In this document: one piece after another, positions 16,208 to 32,390 of the stretch | Position numbering within the stretch: position 1 is the first letter of the stretch | Layout: each line of letters starts with the position of its first letter | Origin: Nonomuraea sp. NBC_00507 | GTDB lineage: Bacteria; Actinomycetota; Actinomycetes; Streptosporangiales; Streptosporangiaceae | Direction: 5' to 3' | Length of the DNA stretch: 64,000 nt | Assembly: GCF_036013525.1 (NCBI RefSeq) | Contig: NZ_CP107853.1 | Location: 4,402,001-4,466,000 of the forward strand | Position numbers and translations under genes: made by a program | Notes under the pieces: model-generated | What the model was told of the DNA's origin: nothing | What the model saw: only the letters and a program-made list of their open reading frames with translations | Databases searched by the model: none

Positions 16208-17335
16208 ATGGACCAGAGGTATTCGCCGGTTCAGGACTTACGGCGGCACCACCGCCGGCTGGTGCTGCGGAGCCTGCGCGACGACGGGCCTCAGCCGCGT
16301 GCCGATCTGGCGCGGCGGCTGGCTCTGTCGGCCACCACGATGACCAAGGTGGTGGGCCAGCTGCTCGAGGAGGGCCTGGTCGCGGAGGACGCCGTGGAAG
16401 GCGCCGGCCAGCGGGTCGGCCGCCCGTCCACCGGCATCAGGATCCGCGCGGACGCCCGATACGTCATCGGTGTCCAGGTCGGCGCGGGCGCGGTGCAGCT
16501 GGGGCTGTGCGACCTCAGGGCCAGGGGCGTCCGGAGCGCATCGTTCGCCTTTGACGCCGAGGCCCCGGAGCGGGTCGTGGCGCGCATCGCCGAGGTCGCG
16601 TCCGAGCTCGCGGCCGACGTGCCCGCCGACCGGCTGCTGGGCATCGGGGTCGCCGCCCCCGGCCCGGTGGATCCCGAGCATCGCCGCAACCTGCTGTCGG
16701 TCAACCTGGGCTGGCGCGACGTGGCCTTCGCCGACCTGCTGGAGGCCGCGCTGGACGTCCCCACGGTCGTCGACCACAACGTACGTTCCATGGCGCTGGC
16801 CGAGTGCCGCTACGGGGAGACGGCCGGCGCCGACCCCCTCCTGTACGTGTACGTCCGCACCGGTGTCGGCGCCGGCCTGGTGATCGGCGGCCACCCGTTC
16901 CGGCCAGGCCCCTACGGGGTCACCGAGCTGGGCCATCTGCGGGTGCTGGAGAAGGGCCGCCCGTGCCCGTGCGGCGCGACCGGCTGCCTGGAGACCGTGG
17001 TGTCGGAGCCATACCTGATCGAGCAGCTTGGCCGCCGCTCCGCCAACCCGCTCGCGGAGATCCCCGACGGACTCCTCGACGACCTGGTGGATCACCTGAC
17101 CACCGGGCTGGCCAGCGCCGTCAACCTGCTCAACCCCGAGCTGATCCTGCTCGGCGGCATCTTCGCGCCGGCTCCTGAGCCGGTGTTCGACCGGGTGCGT
17201 GCCGCCCTGCGGGCCAAGGCGTTCCCCGTGCTCCGCGACGCGGTGCGGGTGGAGCGGCCGACCCTCGGCGGCGAGGCCGCCGGCGTGGTGGGCGGGGCCG
17301 CCGTCGCCTTGGATTGTTTCTTGTACGAAAGGTAG
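16208..17335 (+). CDS. ROK-family transcriptional regulator
   Basis: A 375-aa protein with an N-terminal winged helix-turn-helix (residues about 15-70, with RADLARRLALSATTMTKVV) and a ROK sugar-kinase-like domain. The zinc-binding CPCGATGCLE lies near 253-262. GIGVAAPGPVD and GVGAGLVIGG are the phosphate-binding loops. ROK regulators sense sugars or amino sugars. The ATG follows AAAGGGG. The next gene starts five bases after the stop, so this is the local regulator of the beta-propeller glycosidase-like protein. It could also act on the ngc operon, which carries a ROK-type palindrome. Confidence 0.9.
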   Translation: MDQRYSPVQDLRRHHRRLVLRSLRDDGPQPRADLARRLALSATTMTKVVGQLLEEGLVAEDAVEGAGQRVGRPSTGIRIRADARYVIGVQVGAGAVQLGLCDLRARGVRSASFAFDAEAPERVVARIAEVASELAADVPADRLLGIGVAAPGPVDPEHRRNLLSVNLGWRDVAFADLLEAALDVPTVVDHNVRSMALAECRYGETAGADPLLYVYVRTGVGAGLVIGGHPFRPGPYGVTELGHLRVLEKGRPCPCGATGCLETVVSEPYLIEQLGRRSANPLAEIPDGLLDDLVDHLTTGLASAVNLLNPELILLGGIFAPAPEPVFDRVRAALRAKAFPVLRDAVRVERPTLGGEAAGVVGGAAVALDCFLYER

Positions 17336-17340
17336 GAACT

Positions 17341-18303
17341 GTGGTTAATCGCGTTTACGCCCCGCTGGCCGCGTTCGATCCTCTGGCGGGCGAGGTGGTG
17401 CTCGCGCCGGAGAAGGACGAGGAAGGTTACTGGTCGGGCGCCGCCGGGGTGCTGCACGATGGCGAGCGGTTCTGGCTGACCTACCGGCGACGCCGGCCCA
17501 GGGGCGCCGCGTCGGAGCGCGGCTGGCAGTGCGCGGTCGCGGTCAGCGACGACGGCCTCGACTTCACCGACGTGTGGTCGGCGCACAAGGGCGAGCTGGG
17601 CACGCCGTCGATGGAGCGTTTCTGCCTGGCGCCGGCCGACGGCGGCGGGTTCCGGCTCTACCTGTCGTACGTGGATCCGGCCGACAACCGGTGGCGCATC
17701 GACGCGGTGACGGCCGAGCACCCGTCCGCGTTCGACGTCACGCGGGCCCGGCCCGTGCTGACCGCGGCCTCCACCGGCACCGAAGGCGTCAAGGACCCGT
17801 ACGTGCTGCGTGCCGGTCCCGTCACCTACCTGTTCGCCAGCTACGCCGAGCCGCTGGAGAGCCCCGACCCCGATGCGCACGCGACCGCCGACATCTACAA
17901 CGTCGGCGCGACCACGCACCCCACCGGCCTGGCCACCAGCCTCGACGGCGAGTCGTTCACCTGGCGGGGGAGCGTCCTGCCGGTCGGCACCGGCTGGGAC
18001 CGCTACCAGGCCAGGCTGAACAGCGTGGTGCCGATCCCCGGCTGCGGATACGTGGGCTTCTACGACGGCTCGGCCTCGCACGCGGAGAACTACGAGGAGC
18101 GCTGCGGCATCGCCGTCTCCACCGATCTGTTCGACTGGCGGCGGCTGTCGGAGTATGGGCCGTGGGTCACCTCGCCGCATCGCAGCGGATCCGTACGCTA
18201 TCTCGACGCGCTGATCCTCGACGGGCAGTGGTGGCTTTACTACGAGATGACGCGCCAGGATGGGGCACACGAGCTGCGCGTCCTTCGCGTTCGGGCTGAA
18301 TGA
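17341..18303 (+). CDS. glycoside-hydrolase-like five-bladed beta-propeller protein
   Basis: GTG 17341 behind AGGTAGGA gives 320 aa without a signal peptide. The pattern of repeated beta blades is GYWSGAAGVLHDGERFWLTY, then FRLYLSYVDPADNRWRIDAV, KDPYVLRAGPVTYLFASY and RYLDALILDGQWWLYYEM. This matches GH43/GH32/GH130-like propellers. KDP near residue 150 and the Glu in YYEM near 305 could be functional acids, but I cannot fix a family. It is co-transcribed with the ROK regulator, so a cytoplasmic role in oligosaccharide breakdown or sensing is likely. Confidence 0.7.
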   Translation: MVNRVYAPLAAFDPLAGEVVLAPEKDEEGYWSGAAGVLHDGERFWLTYRRRRPRGAASERGWQCAVAVSDDGLDFTDVWSAHKGELGTPSMERFCLAPADGGGFRLYLSYVDPADNRWRIDAVTAEHPSAFDVTRARPVLTAASTGTEGVKDPYVLRAGPVTYLFASYAEPLESPDPDAHATADIYNVGATTHPTGLATSLDGESFTWRGSVLPVGTGWDRYQARLNSVVPIPGCGYVGFYDGSASHAENYEERCGIAVSTDLFDWRRLSEYGPWVTSPHRSGSVRYLDALILDGQWWLYYEMTRQDGAHELRVLRVRAE

Positions 18304-18369: not shown

Positions 18370-20121
18370 GTGACGGTCAACGGGGCGTCGGCGACGACGC
18401 CTGTGGCAGAGGTGACGGGCCAGGCGGTCGGGCGGGTTCTCGGCACGCAGGCGGCCTCGCCGCTGTCGTTCTGGGTGGGGCTGGAGCCAGGCAAGGTCCT
18501 GCAGCTCGACGACGTGGTGGTGACCAGGCGGGAGGTGCCCGGGTACGGGCCGGTGCTGATGGCGGGCGTGGTGACGACCGTGGAGGCCAGGCACGAGGGC
18601 GCGGCCTACGACTCGGACGTGTTCCTGATCGCCGAGGGCGCGCTGCCTGCCGCCGTGGTCGAGGTGGCCGAGATACGGGTGACCAGGGTCGAGCCGGAGG
18701 TGTTCGTGCCGCCGCTGCCCGGCGCCCAGGTCTACCTGGCCAGTGCCGGCGACCGCGACCAGGCGCTCTACTTCGACGTCATGGACCGGCGCATCCCGAT
18801 GGGCATGGGCCGCGACGGCCAGCCGCTCTACGTCAACTTCGACTTCCTCGACGGCACCCGCGGCGCCCACGTGTCGATTTCCGGCGTGTCCGGCGTGGCC
18901 ACCAAGACCTCCTTCGCCACGTTCCTCCTCTACTCGATCTTCAACTCGGGAGTGCTGGACGCGGAGTCGGCCAACACCAAGGCGTTGATCTTCTCCGTCA
19001 AGGGCGAGGACCTGCTCTTCCTCGACCACGACAACCTCCGCCTCGACGAGAAGGCCAGGAGCGTCTACGCCAGGCTCGGGCTGCCCGCGCGGCCGTTCGG
19101 CAGCGTGCACGTCTTCGCCCCGCCCCGGCCGAACGACCCGAACGGCGTGCCCCACGTCGCCGCCCGCACCCAGGGGGTGAGCGCCTTCTACTGGACGCTG
19201 GTCGAGTTCTGTGAGGACGAGCTGCTGCGGTTCGTCTTCGCCGACGCCGACGACGAGCGGGCCGGCTATTCGCTGCTCGTCGGCCAGGTCGCCGCCCGGC
19301 TGAAGGCGTGGGCCGAGCCCGTGGGCGACGGCGGTGCGGTCAGGGTGCAGGGCACGACGTGCCGGACGTTCGCCGACCTCGTCGAGATGCTGTCCGACCA
19401 GCTGCAGGACGAGGGCAGCCGGCTGCAGTGGACCGGCGCGCAGACGCCGCTCGGCACCGTCAACGCCTTCCTGCGCAGGCTCCGCAGCGCGGTCCGCCCG
19501 CTGTCCCCGATCGTCCGCGGCGACCTGCCGTTCTACCGCGCCCACTCGGTCAGCACGTCCGACGCCCAGGTCTCGATCGTGGACCTGCACAACCTGCCGG
19601 AGCGGGCGCAGCGGTTCGTGGTCGGCGTGGTGCTGCGCGGCGAGTTCCACCGCAAGGAGTCCTCAGGCACGGCCAAACCCCTGCTGTTCGTGGTGCTGGA
19701 CGAGCTCAACAAGTACGCGCCGCGCGAGGGCGACTCGCCGATCAAGGAGATCCTGCTGGACGTGGCCGAGCGCGGCCGCTCACTCGGCGTCATCCTCATC
19801 GGCGCCCAGCAGACCGCCTCGGAGGTGGAGCGGCGCATCGTCTCCAACAGCGCCGTACGCGTCGCAGGCCGCCTCGACCCGGCCGAGGCCGCCAGATCCG
19901 AGTACGGCTGGCTGCCCCCGGCCGTCCGGGAGCGCGCCACGATCGCCAAGCCGGGCACCATGTTCGTGGCCCAGCCGGAGATCCCGGTCCCGCTGGCCGT
20001 GGCCTTTCCCTTCCCCGCGTGGGCGACCCGGCCGGCCGAGGCGGCGGCGCAGGTGACGGCGTCGAGCGGTGATCCGTTCAAGGGCCTGCCCGGCGTCGAA
20101 GACGACATCCCGCCCTTCTGA
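18370..20121 (+). CDS. herA: HerA-type DNA-translocating ATPase
   Basis: GTG 18370 behind GGAGGG gives 583 aa. Residues about 12-110 form a HAS-like beta-barrel. The P-loop region is SGVSGVATKTSFATF (about 171-185). Walker B is LFVVLDELNKYAP (about 439-451), and the FtsK/HerA-style GAQQT lies near 478. HerA hexamers pump DNA and load the NurA nuclease during end resection. The P-loop is unusual: Thr replaces the last glycine before Lys. It is first in an operon with sbcD, sbcC and nurA, separated by 14 bases, then 1- and 4-base overlaps. Confidence 0.85.
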   Translation: MTVNGASATTPVAEVTGQAVGRVLGTQAASPLSFWVGLEPGKVLQLDDVVVTRREVPGYGPVLMAGVVTTVEARHEGAAYDSDVFLIAEGALPAAVVEVAEIRVTRVEPEVFVPPLPGAQVYLASAGDRDQALYFDVMDRRIPMGMGRDGQPLYVNFDFLDGTRGAHVSISGVSGVATKTSFATFLLYSIFNSGVLDAESANTKALIFSVKGEDLLFLDHDNLRLDEKARSVYARLGLPARPFGSVHVFAPPRPNDPNGVPHVAARTQGVSAFYWTLVEFCEDELLRFVFADADDERAGYSLLVGQVAARLKAWAEPVGDGGAVRVQGTTCRTFADLVEMLSDQLQDEGSRLQWTGAQTPLGTVNAFLRRLRSAVRPLSPIVRGDLPFYRAHSVSTSDAQVSIVDLHNLPERAQRFVVGVVLRGEFHRKESSGTAKPLLFVVLDELNKYAPREGDSPIKEILLDVAERGRSLGVILIGAQQTASEVERRIVSNSAVRVAGRLDPAEAARSEYGWLPPAVRERATIAKPGTMFVAQPEIPVPLAVAFPFPAWATRPAEAAAQVTASSGDPFKGLPGVEDDIPPF

Positions 20122-20135
20122 TCACAGGTGGTTTC

Positions 20136-21275
20136 GTGAAGATCCTCCACACCGCGGACTGGCACGTGGGCAAGGTGCTCAAAGGCCGCCCTCGACTCGA
20201 CGAGCACCGGGCCGTGCTGCGCGAGCTGGTCGGCGCCGCCCGTACGCACGACGTGGACGCCGTCATCGTGGCCGGCGACCTGTTCGACACCTCCGCCCCC
20301 ACCCCCGAGGCCCAGTCGCTGGTGCTCAACGCGCTCATGGCGCTGCGGGCCGACAACCGCGACGTGATCGTGCTGGCCGGCAACCACGACAACCCGCAGC
20401 TGCTGGAGGTCTACCGGCCGGTGCTGGGCAAGCTGGGGCTGCACGTGCTCGGCGCCTTCCGCCGTCCCGACGCGGGCGGCACGCTGGCCTTCACCGCGCG
20501 CTCCGGCGAGCCGGTGCGGCTGGCCGTGCTGCCCTTCCTGTCGCACCGCTACGTCGTACGCGCCGCCGAGGTCCTCACCGGCACCGCCGCCGACCACAAC
20601 CGCGACTACGCCGCCCGCATCGGCGAGCTGATCGGCGCGCTCACCGCCGGCTTCCACGGCGACACCGTCAACCTCGTCACCACCCACGGCACCCTGCCCG
20701 GCGGGGCATTCGGCGGCGGCGAGCGGGAGGCGCAGTCGATCTTCTCCTACTACTTCGAGCCGACCGCCTTCCCGACGGCCACCCAGTACGCCGCCCTCGG
20801 CCACCTCCATCGCCGCCAGCAGATCCCCGGGCCCTGCCCGATCTGGTACAGCGGCTCGCCGCTCGCCGTCGACTTCGGCGAAGAAGGCAACACCCCGGGC
20901 GCGCTGCTGGTCGAGGTCTCGCCTGGTCGTCCGGCCGTGGTGCGCGAGCTGACGTTCGGCTCGGCCCGCCGGCTGCGCACCGTACGCGGCACGCTGGAGC
21001 AGCTGGAGGCCATCGAGCCCGGCGACGACTGGCTCAAGGTGATCGTCGAGGAGAAACCCCGCGTGGGCCTCGCCGACGACGTGCGCGAGCTGCTGTCCGG
21101 CGCCGTGGACGTCATGCTGGATGAGAAGTTCCGTCCGGTGCCCGCCACGCGGCGGGCGAGCTCCGCCGACCGCAGCCCGCGCGAGTTGTTCCGCGACTAC
21201 CTTGCCGCCACCGGACGCCACGACGACCAGGTGGCCACCCTGTTCGACCGGCTCTACGACGAGGTGACCGGCTGA
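20136..21275 (+). CDS. sbcD: exonuclease SbcCD subunit D (Mre11-type)
   Basis: A 379-aa metallophosphoesterase. The motifs are in order: LHTADWHVGK (near 4-13), VAGDLFDTSAPT (near 47), LAGNHDN (near 85), VTTHGTLPG (near 185) and ALGHLHRRQQIPG (near 222). These supply the metal ligands of a two-manganese nuclease. SbcD/Mre11 works with SbcC/Rad50 on DNA ends and hairpins. Unlike most actinobacterial sbcD genes it sits between herA and sbcC. The stop overlaps the ATG of sbcC by one base (TGATG), so translation is coupled. Confidence 0.93.
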   Translation: MKILHTADWHVGKVLKGRPRLDEHRAVLRELVGAARTHDVDAVIVAGDLFDTSAPTPEAQSLVLNALMALRADNRDVIVLAGNHDNPQLLEVYRPVLGKLGLHVLGAFRRPDAGGTLAFTARSGEPVRLAVLPFLSHRYVVRAAEVLTGTAADHNRDYAARIGELIGALTAGFHGDTVNLVTTHGTLPGGAFGGGEREAQSIFSYYFEPTAFPTATQYAALGHLHRRQQIPGPCPIWYSGSPLAVDFGEEGNTPGALLVEVSPGRPAVVRELTFGSARRLRTVRGTLEQLEAIEPGDDWLKVIVEEKPRVGLADDVRELLSGAVDVMLDEKFRPVPATRRASSADRSPRELFRDYLAATGRHDDQVATLFDRLYDEVTG

Positions 21276-23692
21276 TGCGCCCCCTGCTGCTGCACCTGGA
21301 CCACTTCGGCAGCTTCCGCGAGCCGGTGACGGTGGACTTCACCGACACCGAATACTTCGCGCTGGTCGGCCCCACAGGGGCGGGCAAGAGCACGATCATC
21401 GATGCGATCTGCTTCGCCCTGTACGGCACGGTGCCGCGCTGGGGGAGGGAGGGCGCCGTCGCCCACGCACTGGCGCCGTCCGTCAGCGCCGGCAAGGTGG
21501 CGATGGTGTTCGAGAGCAACGGGCGCCGTTACGGCGTGGTCCGGGCGATGGTGCGCGACGCCAAGGGCGCGGTGCGTACCAAGGAGGCCAGGCTCGACGA
21601 GCTCGACCCCGTGGCCCAGCCGGCGTTCGACGCGGTGGTCAAACCCCTCGCCGAGGGCGAGAACGTCACCATCGAGGCCCAGCAGGTGACCGGTCTGGAG
21701 TACCGGTTCTTCACTCAGTGCGTGGTGCTGCCGCAGGGGCGCTTCGCCGAGTTCCTGCACGCGGCGCCGCGCGAGCGGCAGGACCTGCTGGTGCAGTTGC
21801 TCGACGCCGACGTGTACGAGCGGATCAGGCAGCGCGCCGCCCGCGAGGAGGAGACCGCCAAGCAGGCCGCCTCCTTCGCCCGCGACGAGCTCGCCAAGTT
21901 GTCCGGCGCGAGCGAGGAGGCCGAGCGGGAGCTGGCCGAACGGCTGGCGGCGCTGCGGCGGCTGGCCGAGACCATCAGCGCCGACCTGGACCTGCTGCGG
22001 GCCCGCGAGTCCGACATCCGCCGCGCCGAGCAGGAGCGGGCGGCCGTCGCCGAACGGCAGTCGGTGTTGTCGGCGCTGCGCATGCCCGACGCGGTCCCGA
22101 CCCTGGCTTCGGCCCGCCGCGCCGCCGCCGAGGCGGTCGAGACGCTGACCGCCGAGGTCGCCACCCTGGAAGCCGACGATCATGAGGCGTACGAGGCGCT
22201 GGCCGCCCTGGGCGATCGGGGCGCGCCGCGGGCGGCGCTGGCCGCGCTGGACGCCCGCGAGCGGTTGCACGTCGAGGCCAGGCGCGCCCGCGGCGCCGCC
22301 GCTTCAGCCGCCGCGCCGCTGGAGGGCCTGGCCGCCGAGGCGGCCGATGCCGAACGAGCGCTCGCCAACGTGGAGGCGCGGCGCGAACGCCTGCGTGACG
22401 CCCACGCCGCCGCCCACCTCGTCCAGCGGCTCGCCGTCGGCGAAGCGTGCCCGGTCTGCCGCCACCCGATCACCGAGCTGCCGCGCCACGAGCAGCCCAC
22501 CGACATGCGCACCGCCGACCGCGCCCTCGCCACCGCCCGCGAACGGGTCCAGCAGGCCAGAGCCGCGCACGCCAAGGCCGAGACGTCGGCGTCGATGCTG
22601 GCCGCGCAGGCCGCCCGGCTGGAGACTGAGCTGGCCGCGTTGCCCGCCCCCGGCGACCGGGCCGAGCTCGAAGCGCGGCTGGCCGCCATCGCCAAGGCCG
22701 ACGAGCTCGCCACCGAGGCCCGCAACGCCGTACGCGCCGCCCGCGGCCGGCTGGACCGCGCGCGGAGCGCCGCCGAGCAGGTCGAGCGGCAGGCCGACAG
22801 CGCCTGGCGCACGCTGGAGTCCGCCCGCGACCGGCTGCTCGTCTCGGGTGTCCAGGACGACCCGCCGCCGCCCTTGGTCCGCGAGGACCTGCACCGGGCC
22901 TGGAGCGAGCTGCTCGGCTGGCGGGACCGGGCCGCACAGGCCGCCCGTGCCGCGCTGGCCGCGTACGACGAGGAGCTCGCCCGGGTCGGTGAGCGGCTCG
23001 CCGCCGACCGCCACAGGCTCGGCGAGCGCCTGGCCGAGCACGGCGTCGTCGCCCCGCGCGACGCCTCCCCCGACCAGCTGGGCGCCGCCGTCGCCGGGAC
23101 CGCGGCCCGCGCCGAAAGCGCGCTCGACCGGCTCAAGGAGGACCGCAAGCGGGCCGCCGACCTGGAGAACCAGGTCGCGATGAAGGAGCACGAGGCCAAG
23201 GTCGCCCACGAGCTCGCGCTGCGCCTGCGCGCCAACGCCTTCGAGCGCTGGTTGTGCGCCGAAGCCCTCGCCGTGCTGGTCGCCTCGGCCTCCGAGACGC
23301 TGCGCGAGCTGTCCGACGGCCAGTACGAGCTGGCGCTCAGCGACAAGACCGGCGACATCGAGGTCATCGACTTCGGCGAGGCCGGGATGCGGCGCAGCGC
23401 CCGCACACTGTCGGGCGGTGAGACCTTCCAGGCCGCGCTGGCACTCGCCCTGGCCCTGTCCGGCGCCGTCGCCAGGGGATTGGACTCCATCTTCCTCGAC
23501 GAGGGCTTCGGCACCCTGGACCCGGCCACGCTCGACACCGTCGCCACCACGCTCGAACGCCTCGCCGCCGGCCAAGATCGCATGATCGGCGTCGTCACCC
23601 ACGTTCCCGCGCTGGCCGATCGGGTGCCGGTACGCTTCGAGGTCAGGCGCGACGCCAAGGGCTCCCATGTGCGGAAGGCGGAGGTTCAGTGA
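21275..23692 (+). CDS. sbcC: exonuclease SbcCD subunit C (Rad50-type SMC ATPase)
   Basis: An 805-aa protein with the N-terminal P-loop GPTGAGKSTIIDAICFALYG near residue 31-50. Long Ala/Glu/Arg-rich coiled coils follow, with a zinc hook CPVC near 391-394. The C-terminal ABC signature LSGGETFQAAL is near 710 and Walker B is SIFLDEGFGTLD near 735. It is shorter than E. coli SbcC (over 1000 aa), so the coiled coil is short. The ATPase clamps DNA and gates the SbcD nuclease. The nurA start overlaps its stop in GTGA. Confidence 0.93.
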   Translation: MRPLLLHLDHFGSFREPVTVDFTDTEYFALVGPTGAGKSTIIDAICFALYGTVPRWGREGAVAHALAPSVSAGKVAMVFESNGRRYGVVRAMVRDAKGAVRTKEARLDELDPVAQPAFDAVVKPLAEGENVTIEAQQVTGLEYRFFTQCVVLPQGRFAEFLHAAPRERQDLLVQLLDADVYERIRQRAAREEETAKQAASFARDELAKLSGASEEAERELAERLAALRRLAETISADLDLLRARESDIRRAEQERAAVAERQSVLSALRMPDAVPTLASARRAAAEAVETLTAEVATLEADDHEAYEALAALGDRGAPRAALAALDARERLHVEARRARGAAASAAAPLEGLAAEAADAERALANVEARRERLRDAHAAAHLVQRLAVGEACPVCRHPITELPRHEQPTDMRTADRALATARERVQQARAAHAKAETSASMLAAQAARLETELAALPAPGDRAELEARLAAIAKADELATEARNAVRAARGRLDRARSAAEQVERQADSAWRTLESARDRLLVSGVQDDPPPPLVREDLHRAWSELLGWRDRAAQAARAALAAYDEELARVGERLAADRHRLGERLAEHGVVAPRDASPDQLGAAVAGTAARAESALDRLKEDRKRAADLENQVAMKEHEAKVAHELALRLRANAFERWLCAEALAVLVASASETLRELSDGQYELALSDKTGDIEVIDFGEAGMRRSARTLSGGETFQAALALALALSGAVARGLDSIFLDEGFGTLDPATLDTVATTLERLAAGQDRMIGVVTHVPALADRVPVRFEVRRDAKGSHVRKAEVQ

Positions 23693-24633
23693 CGGGCTTC
23701 ACCGTTGACCCGTGGGACCCCGGCTACGCCGCCGCCCTCGCCGTCGAGGCCCTCTCCGAGCTGGGCGCGACCAGCGCCGAGCTGGTGCTGGACATCGAGC
23801 GGCCGGCCGCAGACTGGAAGCCCGTCACGCCCGGCCCTGACGCCGCCGCCCCCGAGACGTTGCTGGTCGCCGACGGCGTCCGCAGGATCGACGCCCGCGT
23901 CTGGGTCCATGATCCCGACGCGCCCATGCCCGTTCCCGGGATCGCGGCCTCCTACGCGGCCGGGATCGTGCGATGCGGCCCGGACGGCGCCGACCTCGCC
24001 GAGATCGAGGTCCACCGGGCGTTGATCTCCGCGTTCCCGCAGGCGCCCGAGGTCAAGACCCCGCACGCCACCTACCACCCCAGCAAGGCCGCCGACGGCA
24101 GCTTCGAGGAGCTGTCGCTGGCGTTGCAGCGGCAGGTCACGCAGCTGGAGGTGGACCTGGCGGTGCGGCACCGGTCGCAGAGTGACGACCTGCTGCTGGT
24201 GGACGGGCCGTTGCGGGGGCGTACGCATCTGCCGCGCACGGTCGGTTACATCAAGACGCACCACACCGCCTACCTGCCGCCGCCGCAGTCCGCGGTGGTC
24301 GCCGCGCTCATGCCCGGGCAGCGTACGCCGGTCTTCTTCATGGGCACCAGCTGGCGGCGGCACGCCTGGTATGTACGGCTCCCCGTCCAGTCATCGGCAC
24401 CCTGGGCGGGTGTGGCCCGCTGCGAGGCCGGCGCCGAGCTGGAGCCGGCCCAGGTCGTCCGGCTGGCCGACGCCGTCACGCTGGCCCTGCCGCCGCTGGC
24501 CGGAGTGGACTACAAGGACCCGCGCGCGCCACAGAACCTCGTCCCGATCGGCGGCCTGGAAAAGCTCCTGCGCCACCACTTGGGCGACGCCCGCCTGCTC
24601 TACCGCGCGCTGCGCACCGCCGCGGGCGCCTAG
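23689..24633 (+). CDS. nurA: NurA-type DNA end-processing nuclease
   Basis: GTG 23689 overlaps the sbcC stop by four bases; 314 aa. The RNase-H-like NurA fold is indicated by LLVADGVRRIDARVWV (near 60-75, catalytic Asp in beta1), the DLLLVDGPLRG segment (near 166-176), TVGYIKTHHTAYLPP and the C-terminal DYKDPRAPQNLVPIGGLE. The second acidic residue is supplied by VDGPL. NurA is a 5'-3' exonuclease/endonuclease that partners HerA, and the presence of herA at the head of the same operon supports the call. The palindrome GCGCCTAGGCGC covers the stop codon. Confidence 0.85.
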   Translation: MTGFTVDPWDPGYAAALAVEALSELGATSAELVLDIERPAADWKPVTPGPDAAAPETLLVADGVRRIDARVWVHDPDAPMPVPGIAASYAAGIVRCGPDGADLAEIEVHRALISAFPQAPEVKTPHATYHPSKAADGSFEELSLALQRQVTQLEVDLAVRHRSQSDDLLLVDGPLRGRTHLPRTVGYIKTHHTAYLPPPQSAVVAALMPGQRTPVFFMGTSWRRHAWYVRLPVQSSAPWAGVARCEAGAELEPAQVVRLADAVTLALPPLAGVDYKDPRAPQNLVPIGGLEKLLRHHLGDARLLYRALRTAAGA

Positions 24634-24644
24634 GCGCTGACCTA

Positions 24645-25844
24645 TCAGTGGCGGGCGCGGGGGAGCGAGGCGGTCACGATCAGGCCGCCCCCCTCGCGCG
24701 GCCGTGCCCTGACGTCGCCGCCGTGCGCGAGCGCCACCGACTGCACGATCGACAGGCCAAGACCCGCGCTCCGCGCGGTGACCACCCGCTCGGCGCCGTG
24801 CCGGTGGAAGGGCTTGAACAGCAGCGGGACGTCGTAGGGCGGCACCTCAGGCCCGGTGTTGCTGACCTCCACCTCGACCTTTCCCTCCGACACCGTACGG
24901 CTGACCACCCGCACCCACCCGGCGCCGTCGTCGACGTTGTAGCGGATGCCGTTCTCGACCAGGTTGTGCACCAGCCGTTCGAGCAGCAACGCGTCCCCGG
25001 TGGTCGGCGCCTGCGCGGTCACCTCGTACACGGTGATCTTGGCCTCGGCGGCGTCCCCTTCGGTCTGCCTGACCACGTGCGTCACCACGTCGGCCAGGTC
25101 CACCGGCGACCGATCCGCGATCTCCTGCTCGGACCTGGCCAGCAGCAGCAACCCGGAGATGAGCCGCTCGTGGCGGGCGTTGATCTCCAGCAGGCTCTCG
25201 CCCAGCTCCTTGACGTCAGCCGAGGCCGTACGGCGGTGCATGGCCAGCTCGACCAGCGCCCGGTTCAGCGTCAGCGGCGTACGCAGCTCATGAGAGGCGT
25301 TCGCCACGAACCTGCGCTGCCCGTCGAAGGAGTCGTCCAGCCGCTCCACCATGGTGTCGAACGTGTCGGCCAGCGTCTTGACCTCGTCCTCCGGCCCTTC
25401 GAGACCGATCCGCTGATGCAGGCCGCGCTCGGCCATGGGCTCGGCGGCGATCTTGCGGGCCGTGTCGGTGACTCGGTGCAGCGGCGCCAGCACCCGCCCC
25501 GCCACCACCCAGCCGAGTCCGACGGCCAGGCCGCCCACCACGACCAGCGCGATCGCGCCCTGGGTGAGCAACGAGGTGATGGCGGCACTGCGCAGCTCCA
25601 GCTCCTGCTGGCGCAGCCACTCGATCGCGGCCTGGCCCTCCAGCAGGACGCCGTCCTTCATGAAGAACAGGTTCTTGACCTTGCCGGGCTCCGACGCGTA
25701 CCGGCTCTCGAACGTCTGCGTCAGTTGCTGGTTGAACAGCAAATAGGTGACGCCGAGCAAGGTCAGCCCAGCGAGAAAGAAGACGGCGCCGTACACGAGC
25801 GTGAGTCGCAGTCGCAACGTGGGCTGCAGGCGCGGGAGTCTCAT
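24645..25844 (-). CDS. sensor histidine kinase
   Basis: 399 aa. The N-terminal membrane helix is at about 12-35, then a short extracellular sensor (about 40-90) and a second helix at about 95-120. A HAMP region follows, then the H-box FVANASHELRTPLTLNRALVE (His near 200). The ATPase has an N-box (LVHNLVENGIRYN) and a G-box (SAGLGLSIVQSVALAHGG). It is a classical OmpR-type membrane kinase. Its ATG overlaps the stop of the response regulator by four bases. It is convergent with nurA. The divergently placed efflux operon is the probable target. Confidence 0.92.
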   Translation of the reverse strand: MRLPRLQPTLRLRLTLVYGAVFFLAGLTLLGVTYLLFNQQLTQTFESRYASEPGKVKNLFFMKDGVLLEGQAAIEWLRQQELELRSAAITSLLTQGAIALVVVGGLAVGLGWVVAGRVLAPLHRVTDTARKIAAEPMAERGLHQRIGLEGPEDEVKTLADTFDTMVERLDDSFDGQRRFVANASHELRTPLTLNRALVELAMHRRTASADVKELGESLLEINARHERLISGLLLLARSEQEIADRSPVDLADVVTHVVRQTEGDAAEAKITVYEVTAQAPTTGDALLLERLVHNLVENGIRYNVDDGAGWVRVVSRTVSEGKVEVEVSNTGPEVPPYDVPLLFKPFHRHGAERVVTARSAGLGLSIVQSVALAHGGDVRARPREGGGLIVTASLPRARH

Positions 25845-26497
25845 GCGATCCGGTACCCCACCCCCGGCACGGTCTCCACGACCGGCGGGTCGGCGAGCTT
25901 GCGGCGCAGCTTGAGAATGGTGAGCCGGACGGCCCCCGTGAACGGGTCGGCGTGCTCGTCCCACGCCTTCTCCAGCAGCTGCTCGGCCGAGACCACGTTG
26001 CCGTTGGCCCGCATCAGCTCGGCCAGCACCGCGAACTCCTTCTTCGACAGCGGCACGAACCGCCCGTTCCTGAACACCTCCCTGCGCGCCGGGTCCAGCG
26101 TGATCCCGGCCCGGCGCAGCACCGGCGGTACGGCCGGCCGCGAGCGCCGCCCCAGGGCCAGGACGCGGGCGGCCAGCTCGGGGAACGCGAACGGCTTCGA
26201 CAGGTAGTCGTCGGCCCCGATGGACAGCCCCGTCACCCGGTCGTCGAGCTGCGCGGCCGCCGTCAGCATCAGCACCCGCGCGTCGGACTCCGAGGCGACC
26301 AGTTCCCTGCACACCTCGTCGCCGTGCACCCGCGGCAGGTCGCGATCCAGCACGACCACGTCGTAGTCGTTGACCGCGATCCGTTCCAGCGCCGCCTCGC
26401 CGTCATGCGCCAGATCGACCGCATGGGTCTCCTCGCGCAGCCACTCGGCAATCGCGTCGGCGAGCATCCGCTCGTCCTCAACCACCAGCACCCGCAT
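25841..26497 (-). CDS. OmpR-family response regulator
   Basis: 218 aa. Receiver domain MRVLVVEDERMLADAI (acidic pair near 8-9), phospho-acceptor Asp in DVVVLDRDLPRVHGD (near 51) and Lys in YLSKPFAFPEL (near 101). The C-terminal winged helix is at about 125-218 (LSKKEFAVLAELMRANGNVV and GAVRLTILKLRRKL). It pairs with the histidine kinase in an ATGA-coupled operon. It is divergent from the lipoprotein/efflux operon, across 150 bases. Confidence 0.94.
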   Translation of the reverse strand: MRVLVVEDERMLADAIAEWLREETHAVDLAHDGEAALERIAVNDYDVVVLDRDLPRVHGDEVCRELVASESDARVLMLTAAAQLDDRVTGLSIGADDYLSKPFAFPELAARVLALGRRSRPAVPPVLRRAGITLDPARREVFRNGRFVPLSKKEFAVLAELMRANGNVVSAEQLLEKAWDEHADPFTGAVRLTILKLRRKLADPPVVETVPGVGYRIA

Positions 26498-26648
26498 GGC
26501 GTAGCTCAGGCCCCTCTCTTCGCTTTCAGAGCCGAGTGTGACCTACGGGGCGTTTGCTCCAAATAAGTCAGCCGCGGAAACGCGGAGGAAACGGCGGGCC
26601 GTATTGCATCTCCCCTCGACGACGTTGATTCGACGGAGGAGATCATCC

Positions 26649-27164
26649 ATGCGAGCACGAGCTCTCATAACTCTGGCCGCCGCCACCATGCTGCTGGCGG
26701 GCTGCGGAGGCGCCGCCGCCGGCGGCTCCGACGTGGCCTCGGTCACCGGCACAGGCAATCAGGCCGGGGCCAGCGCCAAACCGAGCGAGGACCCGCACGA
26801 GAGGGCGCTCAAATACGCCCAGTGCATGCGCGAGAACGGCATCGACATGCCGGACCCCGAGCCGGGCAAGGGCGTCATGCTGCGGCTCGACAAGAACACC
26901 CCCAGGGAGACGATGCAGAAGGCCCAGGAGGCCTGCAAGCAGTACGCCCCGAGCGGTCAGAAGGCGGGCGGGGGTGACCCCAAGCGGGCCGAGGCCCTGC
27001 GCAAGGTCGCGCAGTGCATGCGGGACAACGGCGTCGAGAAGTACCCGGACCCCGAGGGCGGCATGATGCGCATCACCGGCGACGTCGGCCAGGACCCCGA
27101 CTTCAAGTCCGCCCAGGAGAAGTGCCAGGAGCAGATGGCTGAGGCCGGTATGGGAGGAATGTGA
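26649..27164 (+). CDS. lipoprotein of efflux operon, duplicated CMRxNG motif
   Basis: ATG 26649 behind GGAGGAG gives 171 aa. The signal peptide ends in the lipobox LLAGC (Cys near 18), so the protein is a surface lipoprotein. After a disordered spacer two similar repeats appear: YAQCMRENGIDMPDPEPG (about 56-73) and VAQCMRDNGVEKYPDPEGG (about 119-137). Each is followed by a Cys-Lys/Gln helix (EACKQYA, EKCQEQM), suggesting two disulfide-bonded helical units. It is common in actinobacterial MacAB-like operons. It probably assists the downstream membrane fusion protein; the exact role is unknown. It overlaps the next gene. Confidence 0.75.
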   Translation: MRARALITLAAATMLLAGCGGAAAGGSDVASVTGTGNQAGASAKPSEDPHERALKYAQCMRENGIDMPDPEPGKGVMLRLDKNTPRETMQKAQEACKQYAPSGQKAGGGDPKRAEALRKVAQCMRDNGVEKYPDPEGGMMRITGDVGQDPDFKSAQEKCQEQMAEAGMGGM

Positions 27165-28297
27165 TGGGAATGGCCACCCTTGACGGGAAGGCGGAGCCCG
27201 ATGCGACGCCCTCCCGCCCGCGCCGCCGTCGCGGGCGGGGCAAGGTGGTCGCCGGACTGTTCATCGTGCTGGCCGCAGCGGGCGGTGGGTTCGTGGCGAT
27301 CAACAGCGGGGGCCTGCTGGAGGGCGCCTCGGGTCCGACCCAGTCGGCCAAGGCCCTGCCCCCGGCCACCGCCACGGTGGCCAGGCAGACGCTGAACGAC
27401 ACCATGGACGCCGATGGCGAGCTCGGCTACGGACCGGTCACCACGGCGGTGAGCAGGAAGCCCGGCACGATCACCTGGCTGCCCGAGAGCGGTCAGCAGA
27501 TCACCCGCGGCAAGTCGATGTACCGGCTGGACAACGACCCCGTCACGCTCATGTACGGCGACACGCCCGCCTACCGCGACCTCAAGATCGGCGCGGAGGG
27601 CAACGACGTGGAGAACCTGGAGCGCAACCTCAGCAAGCTGGGCTACGACGGCTTCACGGTCGACGACGAGTACACCTACGACACCGCCGAGGCCGTCATG
27701 GAATGGCAGGAAGACCGTGGCCTGGACGAGACCGGCGTGGTCGAGCTGGGCCGCGTCGTCTTCGCGCCGGGCAAGGTACGCGTGGAGAGCATCGAGTCCG
27801 AGGAGGGCCAGCCGGCCCAGCCCGGCCAGAAGGTCCTGACGTACACGGGCACGTCCAAGGTCGTCACCGTCGAGCTGGAGGCCGAGGACCAGCGGATGGC
27901 CAAGAAGGGGGCCAAGGTCGAGGTCACGCTGCCCGACGGCAAGAACGTGAACGGCAAGGTCACCGAGGTCGCCACGGTCATCGTGCCGGGCGACAGCCAG
28001 AACGCCGACCCCGAGACCCGGGTCGAGGCGCTGGTCTCGATCGGCAATGCCAAGGCCGCCAAGGGGCTCGACAAGGCGTCGGTGGACGTGACGTTCACCG
28101 CCTCCCAGCGCAAGAACGTGCTGACCGTGCCGGTCGCGGCGCTCGTGGCGCTGCGGGAGGGCGGCTTTGGCCTGGAGGTGATCGAGGGCGGCACGTCGAG
28201 GTACATCGCCGTCGAGACGGGGCTGTTCGCCGGCGGGCGGGTCGAGGTCGAGGGCGACGGGCTCACCGAGGGCATGACCGTGGGGATGCCGAAGTGA
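27164..28297 (+). CDS. MacA/HlyD-like periplasmic adaptor with peptidoglycan-binding domain
   Basis: Start chosen at ATG 27164, five bases after GGGAGGA; 377 aa. A basic N-terminus precedes one membrane helix (about 26-45). Outside are a lipoyl/barrel region (PGTITWLPESGQQITRGKSMY), a peptidoglycan_binding_1 domain (IGAEGNDVENLERNLSKLGY with TAEAVMEWQ, about 145-190) and a C-terminal beta-barrel/MPD part. The PG-binding insertion is typical of actinobacterial adaptors for MacB-type ABC exporters. It is the second gene of the lipoprotein-adaptor-ATPase-permease operon. Confidence 0.85.
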   Translation: MGMATLDGKAEPDATPSRPRRRRGRGKVVAGLFIVLAAAGGGFVAINSGGLLEGASGPTQSAKALPPATATVARQTLNDTMDADGELGYGPVTTAVSRKPGTITWLPESGQQITRGKSMYRLDNDPVTLMYGDTPAYRDLKIGAEGNDVENLERNLSKLGYDGFTVDDEYTYDTAEAVMEWQEDRGLDETGVVELGRVVFAPGKVRVESIESEEGQPAQPGQKVLTYTGTSKVVTVELEAEDQRMAKKGAKVEVTLPDGKNVNGKVTEVATVIVPGDSQNADPETRVEALVSIGNAKAAKGLDKASVDVTFTASQRKNVLTVPVAALVALREGGFGLEVIEGGTSRYIAVETGLFAGGRVEVEGDGLTEGMTVGMPK

Positions 28298-29049
28298 CGT
28301 ACCCCATGATCTCGCTGACGGATGTGTCCAAGTCCTACCCCGGCGGGGTGACGGCGCTGAACTCGGTGTCGCTGCGCATCGAGCACGGCGAGCTCGTCGC
28401 CATCGCCGGCCCGTCGGGGTCGGGGAAGTCGACCATGCTCAACGTCGTCGGCACCCTCGACCGGCCGTCCTCGGGAACCATCCACATCGACGGCTACGAC
28501 GTGTCGAAACTGTCCGACGGCCAGCTCTCGGCGCTGCGCGCCACCACGATCGGTTTCATCTTCCAGCACTTCCACCTCGCCGCGAAGGTCCCCGCGCTGG
28601 ACAACGTGGCCGACGGCCTCATCTACACCGGCATGAGCAGGTCCGAGCGGCGCCGCCGGGCGGCCGCCGCGCTCGAACGGGTCGGTCTCGGGCACCGGAT
28701 GGACCACGAGCCGCACGAGTTGTCCGGTGGCGAGCGGCAGCGCGTGGCCATCGCCAGGGCCGTGGCGGGCGAGCCGCCGCTGGTGCTGGCCGACGAGCCG
28801 ACCGGGGCTCTGGACTCGGTGTCCGGCACGGGGGTGATGGAGTTGCTGCACGAGTTGAACGCCTCCGGCACCACCATCGTGATCATCACGCACGATCGGG
28901 AGATCGCCGCCAGCCTGCCCCGGCAGGTGCGGATGCGGGACGGCGAGATCATCGCGGACAGCGCGATGCCCGACATGCCGGACTCCGGCACGTCGGGCAT
29001 GGTGCCGGACTCGGGCACATCGGATATGGCCGAATCAGGGGTGGCGTGA
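28294..29049 (+). CDS. MacB/LolD-type ABC transporter ATP-binding protein
   Basis: GTG 28294 overlaps the upstream stop (GTGA); ATG 28306 is an alternative. 251 aa. Walker A is GPSGSGKST near residue 40, the Q-loop IGFIFQHFHL near 90, the signature LSGGERQRVAIARA near 144, and Walker B PLVLADEPTGALD near 165. The C-terminal 30 residues add two near-identical PDSGTS units not found in the core family. It energises the permease that follows. Confidence 0.92.
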   Translation: MTYPMISLTDVSKSYPGGVTALNSVSLRIEHGELVAIAGPSGSGKSTMLNVVGTLDRPSSGTIHIDGYDVSKLSDGQLSALRATTIGFIFQHFHLAAKVPALDNVADGLIYTGMSRSERRRRAAAALERVGLGHRMDHEPHELSGGERQRVAIARAVAGEPPLVLADEPTGALDSVSGTGVMELLHELNASGTTIVIITHDREIAASLPRQVRMRDGEIIADSAMPDMPDSGTSGMVPDSGTSDMAESGVA

Positions 29050-30269
29050 TGGCCGTCGTCGAGGTGAAACGGCCCAAACTGGCCCCGGCCGGCATGCGGC
29101 TGGGCGACGTCATGCGGGTCGGCGCGGTGGGCCTGCGGACGCGCCCTCTGCGGGCGTTCCTGTCCGCGCTCGGCATCGCCATCGGCATCGCGGCCATGGT
29201 GGGCGTGGTCGGGCTCTCGTCCTCCTCGGGCGCCGAGCTCGACCGCACGCTCTCCGCCCTCGGCACCAACCTGCTCACCGTCGCCTCGGGCACCACGCTC
29301 ACGGGCGAGGCGGCGCAGATGCCGAAGGACGCCGAGGCGATGATCGAGCGCATCGGGCCCGTGGAGGCCGCCTCCGCGGTGGCGAAGATCTCCGCGGCCA
29401 AGGTCTACAGGTCCGAGCAGATCCCCGAGGCCCAGACCGGTGGCATCGCCACGTACGCCGCCCGCCTCGACCTGCCCGCCACCGTCGGCGCGACGCTACG
29501 CAGCGGGACCTGGCTCAACCAGGCCACCGAACGCTATCCGGCGGCCGTGCTCGGCTCGGCCGCCGCCCAGCGGCTCGGCATCGGCGCGGTCAGCCAGGAC
29601 ACGCAGGTCGTCGTCGGCGGCCAGCGCTTCTCCGTCGTCGGCGTGCTGAACCCGGTCGCGCTCGCCACGGACCTGGACAGCGGCGTCATGGTGGGCTGGC
29701 CGGTGGCCGAGGAACGGCTGGACTTCGACGGGCACCCGACCACGCTCTACACCCGCTCGGAGGAGGCCAATCTGGAGGCGGTACGCCAGGTCCTGGCGGG
29801 CACCGCCAACCCGGAGGCGCCGAACGAGGTGGACGTCTCCCGCCCGTCCGACGCGCTGGCCGCCAAGCAGGCGACCAGCCAGGCGTTCGCCAACCTCCTG
29901 CTGGGCGTGGGCGCGGTGGCTCTGCTCGTGGGCGGTGTCGGCGTGGCCAACACCATGGTCATCTCGGTGCTGGAACGCCGCTCGGAGATCGGGCTGCGCC
30001 GCTCGCTCGGGGCGACCCGCGGTCAGATCCGCATCCAGTTCCTGGCCGAGTCGCTGCTGCTGTCGGCGATGGGCGGAGCGGGCGGTGTGCTCCTGGGCAC
30101 CGCCGTCACCATGGGGTACGCGCTCTACAGCGGCTGGCCCTCCGTGGTCCCGGCCTGGGCCACGGTCGGCGGGCTCGCCGCGACGCTGGCCATCGGCGCC
30201 ATGGCCGGCCTCTACCCGGCCATCCGCGCCTCCCGCCTGTCCCCGACGGAGGCACTCTCCACGCCGTGA
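29049..30269 (+). CDS. MacB-like ABC transporter permease (FtsX family)
   Basis: 406 aa; the ATG overlaps the ATPase stop by one base. It has the FtsX/MacB plan: N-terminal helix (LRAFLSALGIAIGIAAMVGVV region, about 35-55), a large extracellular MacB_PCD domain (about 60-270), then three helices (about 275-300, 325-350, 360-380). The C-terminal LYPAIRASRLSPTEALS is a family hallmark. Together with the lipoprotein, adaptor and ATPase it forms an export system for an unknown substrate, likely controlled by the adjacent two-component system. Confidence 0.9.
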   Translation: MAVVEVKRPKLAPAGMRLGDVMRVGAVGLRTRPLRAFLSALGIAIGIAAMVGVVGLSSSSGAELDRTLSALGTNLLTVASGTTLTGEAAQMPKDAEAMIERIGPVEAASAVAKISAAKVYRSEQIPEAQTGGIATYAARLDLPATVGATLRSGTWLNQATERYPAAVLGSAAAQRLGIGAVSQDTQVVVGGQRFSVVGVLNPVALATDLDSGVMVGWPVAEERLDFDGHPTTLYTRSEEANLEAVRQVLAGTANPEAPNEVDVSRPSDALAAKQATSQAFANLLLGVGAVALLVGGVGVANTMVISVLERRSEIGLRRSLGATRGQIRIQFLAESLLLSAMGGAGGVLLGTAVTMGYALYSGWPSVVPAWATVGGLAATLAIGAMAGLYPAIRASRLSPTEALSTP

Positions 30270-31400: not shown

Positions 31401-32390
31401 TCACCTGGCGCCGCCCCTGAGCTTGGCGATCAGTCCCAGGTCGTCCACGCAGTGTCCGAGGCCGAGCGCCACGGACTCCAGGGGCCGCTCCGCCCGGCGC
31501 ACCGGCATGCACAAGGCGGTACGCATCCGCCGGCACAGCCCGCGCAGCAGCGCGCCACCCCCCACCAGCACCGCACCCCGTTCCCCGAGGTCGGCCACCA
31601 GTTCCGCCGGGCAGTCCTCCACGATCCCGACCGCCGCCCGCTCGATGGTCTCGACCGGCTGCCTGGTCGCCTCATAGATCAGTTGCACTGGGAGTGCCGC
31701 CGTGCGCTCCCTGCCGGTCTCCGCGTCCCTGCCGTGGACCAGCACCTGCCGGTCCAGAGGCTTCCACTCGGAGCCCGCGCGTCGCTTGGCCGCCTCCGCC
31801 TCGGCCTCGTCGATCAGCAGTCCGTGCTCGCGCTCGACCAGGCGGGCGATCGACCTGCTCATGGCATGGCCGCCGCCCGGCACCGTGCCAGAGGCGACCA
31901 CGGCCCCGTAAGACAGCACCGCGATCCTGGCCGCGTCGCGCCCGATGTCGATGACCATCCACCCGGCGCAGTCCTTGACCGGCACGCCCGCGCCGAGCGC
32001 GGCCGCCAGCGCGTGCGGGATCAGCAGGATGTCCCGCGCCTCCGCCTCGAACGCCACGTCCCGCAGCGCCGCCCGGTCGATCCGCGTGCACCCGTCGGGC
32101 AGCGCCAGGACCACCCGCGGCCGGGCGAACGGATGCCCGTGCACTTTGCGGACGAAATACCGGATCAGACGCCGGGTGAGCTCACCGTCGGCCGGCAGCC
32201 CGTCGCTGATCGGCCAGCACGTCTCGCCGGGTACGTCGACGGCCGCCGCGCCGTACCCGAGGACCTTGCCCGTCTCGGCGTGGCGTGCGACGGCCGAGGG
32301 CTCGTCCAGCACGATGCCCTTGCCCTTGACGTAGATCCGGGTGCACGCGGCCCCGAGATCCATCGCCAGGTCATGGCCGAGGACGCTCAT
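31401..32390 (-). CDS. divergent MreB/Mbl-like actin homolog
   Basis: ATG 32390 behind CGGAG gives 329 aa. The frame is open further upstream but lacks family similarity. The phosphate-1 loop is MDLGAACTRIYVKGKGIVLDEPSAVA (about 9-34), phosphate-2 is MVIDIGRDAARIAVLSYG (about 145-162), and the adenosine motif is AVLVGGGALLRGL (about 290). It matches MreB-family actins that polymerise under the membrane. Several canonical residues differ (GAAC for GTAN, DIGRDA for DIGGGT), so it is a diverged paralogue. In filamentous actinobacteria such proteins work in aerial hyphae and spore walls. Confidence 0.75.
   Translation of the reverse strand: MSVLGHDLAMDLGAACTRIYVKGKGIVLDEPSAVARHAETGKVLGYGAAAVDVPGETCWPISDGLPADGELTRRLIRYFVRKVHGHPFARPRVVLALPDGCTRIDRAALRDVAFEAEARDILLIPHALAAALGAGVPVKDCAGWMVIDIGRDAARIAVLSYGAVVASGTVPGGGHAMSRSIARLVEREHGLLIDEAEAEAAKRRAGSEWKPLDRQVLVHGRDAETGRERTAALPVQLIYEATRQPVETIERAAVGIVEDCPAELVADLGERGAVLVGGGALLRGLCRRMRTALCMPVRRAERPLESVALGLGHCVDDLGLIAKLRGGAR

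Follow-up and report, generated by a model that had tools for sequence, protein, structure and literature searches.

A herA-sbcD-sbcC-nurA operon of Nonomuraea belongs to a widespread, patchy and mobile gene cassette that probably processes DNA ends

The window analyzed here is a stretch of 64,000 nucleotides from Nonomuraea sp. NBC_00507 (contig NZ_CP107853.1, positions 4,402,001 to 4,466,000 of the forward strand). At window positions 18370-24633 it carries four closely packed genes for a HerA-type DNA pump, an SbcD nuclease, an SbcC ATPase and a NurA nuclease. Together these are probably a self-contained bacterial cassette for processing double-strand DNA ends, one that spreads as a unit between sites, species and replicons. 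The kinds of gene are already known, and it is the wide, patchy and mobile distribution of the set that is worth attention.

The operon and its products

All four genes lie on the + strand. The first, herA (18370-20121), has a GTG start with GGAGGG just upstream and encodes 583 amino acids, assigned by sequence as a HerA-type hexameric pump of double-stranded DNA. After a 14-base gap comes sbcD (20136-21275, GTG start, 379 amino acids), for an Mre11-type nuclease, which shares a TGATG overlap with sbcC (21275-23692, ATG start, 805 amino acids), for a short Rad50-type ATPase. This in turn shares a GTGA overlap with nurA (23689-24633, GTG start, 314 amino acids), for a NurA-type, RNase H-like nuclease. 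Judged by this packing, all four functions are probably expressed from a single operon. A check of the open reading frames (ORFs) agrees with the preliminary description of this DNA on the strand, the coordinates, the gap and both overlaps, and its assignment of the four families to one operon is borne out by model and solved-structure matches. The G+C content of the cassette is 73.5%, compared with 69.6 and 70.0% for the 10 kb on either side.

The window HerA aligns with the Deinococcus chain 7f6d_B at E 1.6e-139 in two stretches within residues 17-557 of 583. With a profile this becomes a single stretch, residues 12-560, that covers the HAS-barrel and ATPase domains (E 1.8e-203). Residue equivalences were transferred by hand from the 7f6d_B alignment and the letters then checked. 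Nine residues of Deinococcus radiodurans HerA (drHerA, numbers in brackets) are kept: K179/T180 (K175/T176), K211 (K217), D214 (D220), D444/E445 (D487/E488) and the arginines R452 (R495), R470 (R513) and R509 (R552). Six of these are invariant among 27 aligned sequences and three are present in at least 90%. However, drHerA R154 is not kept and corresponds to D158.

NurA is more divergent. It matches 7f6d_H at E 1.7e-20 by sequence and 8.1e-57 with a profile, and 1zup at E 0.016 and 8.2e-20, respectively. The RNase H-like NurA fold that the preliminary description had predicted for gene 4 is present when the predicted structure is compared with solved NurA. The catalytic residues D53, K201 and R309 of drNurA align with D62, K189 and R279, given an inferred chain offset of 20, and W8 corresponds to W9, by position only. 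All four are invariant in sets of 40 and 42 sequences. The region of the Pin-like motif, on which unwinding depends, is modelled poorly, with a mean predicted local distance difference test score of only 54 for residues 11-30.

Nearly all of the published catalytic and translocation residues of the D. radiodurans HerA-NurA complex (7f6d, 7wrw, 7wrx) that were compared are therefore found in the window proteins, with an alignable HerA and a NurA alike in sequence and fold. Because sequence and fold agree with solved structures, the identity of the two proteins is settled. Pfam alone would have failed. The Pfam profiles that the preliminary description had proposed as a check find nothing in gene 1 and no PF09376 in gene 4, where the sole match is an insignificant one to DUF1979 (E 0.24). 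PF09376 is reached at E <=0.01 by 19 of 42 aligned NurA relatives, and the HAS-barrel profile PF09378 by one of 27 aligned HerA relatives. PF09376 is thus too narrow for this NurA branch, being absent from the window protein and matching only those 19 relatives. Misannotation of genes 1 and 4 is ruled out by the solved-structure matches despite the insignificant Pfam result. Among 120 listed of 3903 NurA relatives in the protein collection, the closest (98% identical) is from Nonomuraea, and the names given are 'hypothetical protein' at NCBI and often 'NurA domain-containing protein' in UniRef.

The middle two genes are readily recognized. SbcD matches TIGR00619 (E 9.4e-51) and the solved SbcD 4lty (E 1.8e-31), and carries the metal-binding motifs DWH, GDLFD, GNHD, THG and GHLH. 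SbcC matches TIGR00618 (E 6.4e-77) and the solved SbcC 6s6v (E 7.7e-41). Its TIGR00618 score of 259 bits falls short of the curated 478.5, possibly a result of its short length. It carries Walker A (GPTGAGKS), signature (LSGGE) and Walker B (LDEGFG) motifs, and at residue 392 a CPVC zinc hook.

An archaeal herA-mre11-rad50-nurA operon was reportedly described by Constantinesco in 2004. Its operon likewise unites these four functions, whereas the window proteins are of bacterial type. The label 'archaeal-style' in the preliminary description is therefore apt for gene content but not for the proteins, which are closest to Deinococcus HerA and NurA and to bacterial SbcD and SbcC. Archaeal and bacterial NurA-HerA are less than 20% identical (PMC9960219; this and the other PMC sources are cited for the excerpts available). 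Unlike the D. radiodurans pair, the window pair shares its operon with sbcD and sbcC. A partial precedent is Oceanithermus profundus, where hepA is followed by sbcD and sbcC, an arrangement likened in 2017 to the archaeal architecture and read as recruitment of SbcDC (PMC5448004). The herA-sbcD-sbcC linkage is thus shared, but it was noted there for one thermophile, whereas in Actinomycetota it belongs to a widespread, moving and plasmid-borne set. A literature search that was not exhaustive, and that covered some sources in excerpt, returned no report of the four-gene operon in actinobacteria.

An addition to the host's end-processing genes

The 12.9-Mb host genome contains another sbcC-sbcD pair, of the ordinary kind (G000:C1:6147728-6152968), encoding an SbcC of 1383 amino acids and an SbcD of 369. 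It also has two large adjacent ORFs with PDDEXK nuclease domains, which we read as putative AdnA and AdnB, and no match to RecC at E 1e-10. The operon is therefore additional to an AdnAB-like pair and an ordinary sbcCD, as the preliminary description had supposed.

The same holds more widely. In a sample of 396 genomes across the phylum, where a HerA match of E 8e-51 or better is called strong, AdnB is found outside the window's own class in 43 of 74 genomes with a strong HerA but in only 17 of 284 without one. The cassette goes with AdnB in this sample, and the idea that it stands in for AdnAB or RecBCD is rejected. Sixteen of the 74 carriers have a match neither to AdnB (E <=1e-60) nor to RecC (E <=1e-10), and in these genomes end resection could depend mainly on the cassette. 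Within the family sample, genomes that lack ordinary sbcD do not clearly carry the cassette more often than the others (7 of 17 genomes, vs. 23 of 103; Fisher p 0.13).

Distribution in Actinomycetota

A scan of genome contigs gave 584 confirmed relatives, of which the best 80 were used; the nearest named loci among these are from Nonomuraea. At 64 of these 80 loci all four genes are present in the same order and on the same strand, and 14 more are cut by a contig end, 13 inside sbcC and one inside sbcD. In the phylum sample a HerA match at E 0.001 is found in 133 of the 396 genomes and a strong one in 76. In this sample strong matches are few in the window's own class (2 of 38 genomes, vs. 74 of 358 elsewhere), even though 30 of 120 genomes of its own family have one and most named loci of the best-80 scan are of that class. 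Twenty of the 76 genomes with a strong HerA were examined, and 19 have all four genes, the other locus being cut by a contig end. Two gene orders occur among the 19, herA-sbcD-sbcC-nurA in 10 and nurA-herA-sbcD-sbcC in 9. The arrangement is thus not exceptional among actinobacteria, contrary to the preliminary description. It is common but patchy in the phylum. One family (f19) of the phylum sample repeatedly shows a second type of HerA, with about 30% identity in the ATPase part.

Movement between chromosomal sites and species

Within the genus, taken as the database's group, herA is present in 41 of 54 genomes and nurA in 42, whereas ordinary sbcD is present in all 54; one of the 12 genomes lacking nurA is just 63% complete. 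The difference between the herA and nurA counts is G524, where sbcC-nurA runs into a contig end.

The sites occupied by the cassette also change. When 4-kb flanks were compared among 21 genomes (210 pairs), with at least 500 bp shared counted as common, the upstream flank of the cassette was common to only 23 pairs, but that of ordinary sbcCD to all 210. For downstream flanks the numbers were 15 and 119, with gene ends taken from tblastn matches, so that a few ordinary sbcC ends are possibly off.

Trees of 31 genomes point the same way. Genomes G531, G540, G548, G560 and also G517 nest within the genus in the tree of ordinary SbcCD but fall among other genera in the tree of cassette HerA, SbcD and NurA, from which sbcC was omitted because its coiled coil aligns poorly. 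A single genus clade in the cassette tree is rejected with a modest p (p-AU 0.021, approximately unbiased test), the test having been done after a first FastTree had revealed the conflict. Identities to the window agree. For G531, G540, G548 and G560 they are 83-84% for ordinary SbcCD but 76-77% for the cassette, whereas for the distant G515 and G546 they are 62-68% for ordinary SbcCD and 84-85% for the cassette.

What surrounds the cassette in the window is consistent with this. Upstream of herA (16208-18303, + strand) are a ROK regulator and a glycosidase-like gene, named from ORF reading. Both are upstream of herA in six loci of the window's sub-clade (L112, L113, L114, L116, L118 and L144); L001 has only a partial glycosidase match, plus an NmrA-like gene. 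On the right (24645-30269), and likewise named from ORF reading, are a two-component pair and lipoprotein-like, MFP, ABC and FtsX-like genes. Nine loci without an adjacent cassette (L132-L140) have five of these six right-hand genes in all nine cases and the lipoprotein-like gene in eight. At 55% identity or more, neither the ROK nor the glycosidase-like gene was found in any of the nine. Two of them, L133 and L140, also have the left-hand NmrA-like gene, about 4 kb from the right-hand block. L140 is from G524, whose cassette sits on another contig. The cassette has probably been lost in some lineages and gained in others, and chromosome rearrangement could add to the changed neighbors. Further to the right, at 31401-32390 on the - strand, is a lone ORF that reads as MreB-like by translation.

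Plasmids, viruses and the question of defense

Six plasmid records match the cassette. One, from Nonomuraea and 11.85 Mb long, is evidently a chromosome. The other five are from Streptomyces, Sphaerospermopsis, Nostoc, Aulosira and Chlorohelix, and all five have the four genes side by side, the Nostoc copy spanning the start of its circular record. The HerA proteins of Chlorohelix and Aulosira are distant (29 and 27% identical to the window).

What if the purpose of such a set is to attack DNA rather than to mend it? A mobile nuclease for defense or plasmid competition, in which HerA pumps, linear DNA arriving from phages or plasmids is shredded by NurA and SbcCD, and the host AdnAB does the ordinary repair, is the main rival explanation, though rather unlikely. 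The plasmid copies give it some encouragement. The Streptomyces copy (L192) adjoins TIGR02678, TIGR02679, TIGR02680 and DUF2397, which we take to be Wadjet, together with ImmA/IrrE and Mrr-type endonuclease genes, and the Chlorohelix copy is near TIR, Swt1-HEPN and ImmA/IrrE genes. However, defense-type genes near two of five plasmid copies are an anecdote without a control.

The chromosomes are less encouraging. From 22 loci, nine of them outside the window's genus, 126 of 195 called proteins were taken, at most the three nearest on each side. They include seven Ser/Thr kinase and three N6 methylase matches, and the others are mostly metabolic or regulatory among the 25 of 117 families listed. 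In L005 and L009 the gene directly upstream of herA is an N6 methylase gene, and a gene with a NACHT domain is near the cassette in L012. A PADLOC scan matched 50 families in this set and four in 131 control proteins (of 203). The controls come from 19 of the 20 random regions and all belong to the genus group, so they are incompletely matched to the cassette set. Nearly all of the 25 of 50 PADLOC families listed are of kinase type, and such models also match ordinary kinases. With these models and this control, enrichment of defense genes in the chromosomal flanks is not convincing. The window genes themselves match PADLOC HerA models only at E 1.1e-5 or weaker and mad8 at 5.9e-9, and gene 4 has no PADLOC match. 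Thus, the plasmids hint at a defense link, but it is weak on the chromosomes, where the named neighbors, from partial family lists, are mixed and mostly non-defense.

Known HerA defense systems (Sir2-HerA, HerA-DUF4297) and TdpAB (8wfd) differ from the four-gene cassette, which has SbcCD but no Sir2, DUF4297 or modification gene. Horizontal transfer to Deinococcus-Thermus is considered likely, and an antiviral role possible (PMC12977600). The literature listings and excerpts searched, including PMC11291478 and PMC12977600, describe no defense system built of HerA, NurA and SbcCD. An extended version, which we consider unlikely, is that the cassette of Actinomycetota, Cyanobacteriota and Chloroflexota is a mobile anti-DNA defense or plasmid-competition system, with SbcCD as a sensor of foreign ends and HerA-NurA as a processive shredder. 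Plasmids would spread the system, and sister species would have lost it or had it replaced. If that were true, the archaeal 'repair operon' and the bacterial form would represent a single portable machine put to two uses.

A second rival is that the operon combines two functional units, one a spare SbcCD and the other a HerA-NurA pair for DNA transfer, comparable to the NurA-like protein and TdtA of Thermus transjugation. NurA-HerA pairs do occur without adjacent SbcCD, in Thermus (PMC5448004) and on a Thermus mobile element (PMC5365140). On the viral contigs L218 and L219 a nurA-like gene is upstream of a distant herA, with no full SbcCD pair in the stretch covered. Matches in viruses are two distant phage records and three viral contigs at 27%, the contigs coming from a search with patterns of one protein, which finds close relatives only. 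Moreover, PLSDB typing places one cassette on a conjugative plasmid and one on a mobilizable plasmid. Nevertheless, SbcD and SbcC accompany HerA-NurA at 64 of the best 80 loci, 19 of 20 phylum loci and all five plasmids, which makes two independent units very improbable. That SbcCD is kept with HerA-NurA in two gene orders suggests a joint function.

A model for the cassette and its difficulties

Processing of double-strand ends by one set of proteins remains the preferred explanation. SbcCD would recognize ends that are blocked or form hairpins and open them. A HerA hexamer would then thread the duplex and pump the DNA into a NurA dimer, which would degrade the 5' strand and leave a 3' tail for RecA. 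The cassette would work beside the host AdnAB and ordinary SbcCD, not instead of them. Pumping by HerA and 5' cutting by NurA, and with them the strand polarity, are inferred from Deinococcus biochemistry, where the complex resects 5' ends in vitro (PMC9960219). The hand-over from SbcCD to a HerA-NurA complex is suggested by the archaeal model and by a linkage that holds in both gene orders. Use in recombination repair is likewise presumed. It would fit the ten-fold drop in intermolecular recombination in Deinococcus lacking nurA or herA, and the role of Thermus HepA in survival of ultraviolet (UV) light (both PMC5448004).

Several observations do not fit so well. Residues that mediate the HerA-NurA contact in Deinococcus are conserved only in part: in the acidic patch of drHerA that contacts NurA, D78 is kept as D83, but E80 and D81, two of the three, are replaced by F85 and L86. 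At two of the best 80 loci (L025 and L049) herA stands alone, with no match to NurA, SbcC or SbcD in the surrounding stretch. A core repair system would not usually be so patchy or so mobile. Even in Deinococcus a repair role is disputed, because a nurA herA double knock-out withstands high doses of UV and mitomycin about ten-fold better, and deletions in Deinococcus or Thermus gave resistance to damage that was modest or even improved (PMC9960219). Finally, the literature searched, some of it available in excerpt, holds no experiment on an actinobacterial copy.

The cassette may move because it defends against incoming DNA, or it could be a selfish or plasmid-borne aid to recombination; the agent of movement may be a plasmid of the kind on which copies are found. 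What HerA-NurA does in bacteria is under dispute, and a compact cassette such as this one offers a direct way to ask whether it serves repair, DNA uptake or defense. It suits such tests, being widespread among actinomycetes that can be cultured, with sister species that naturally differ in whether they have it.
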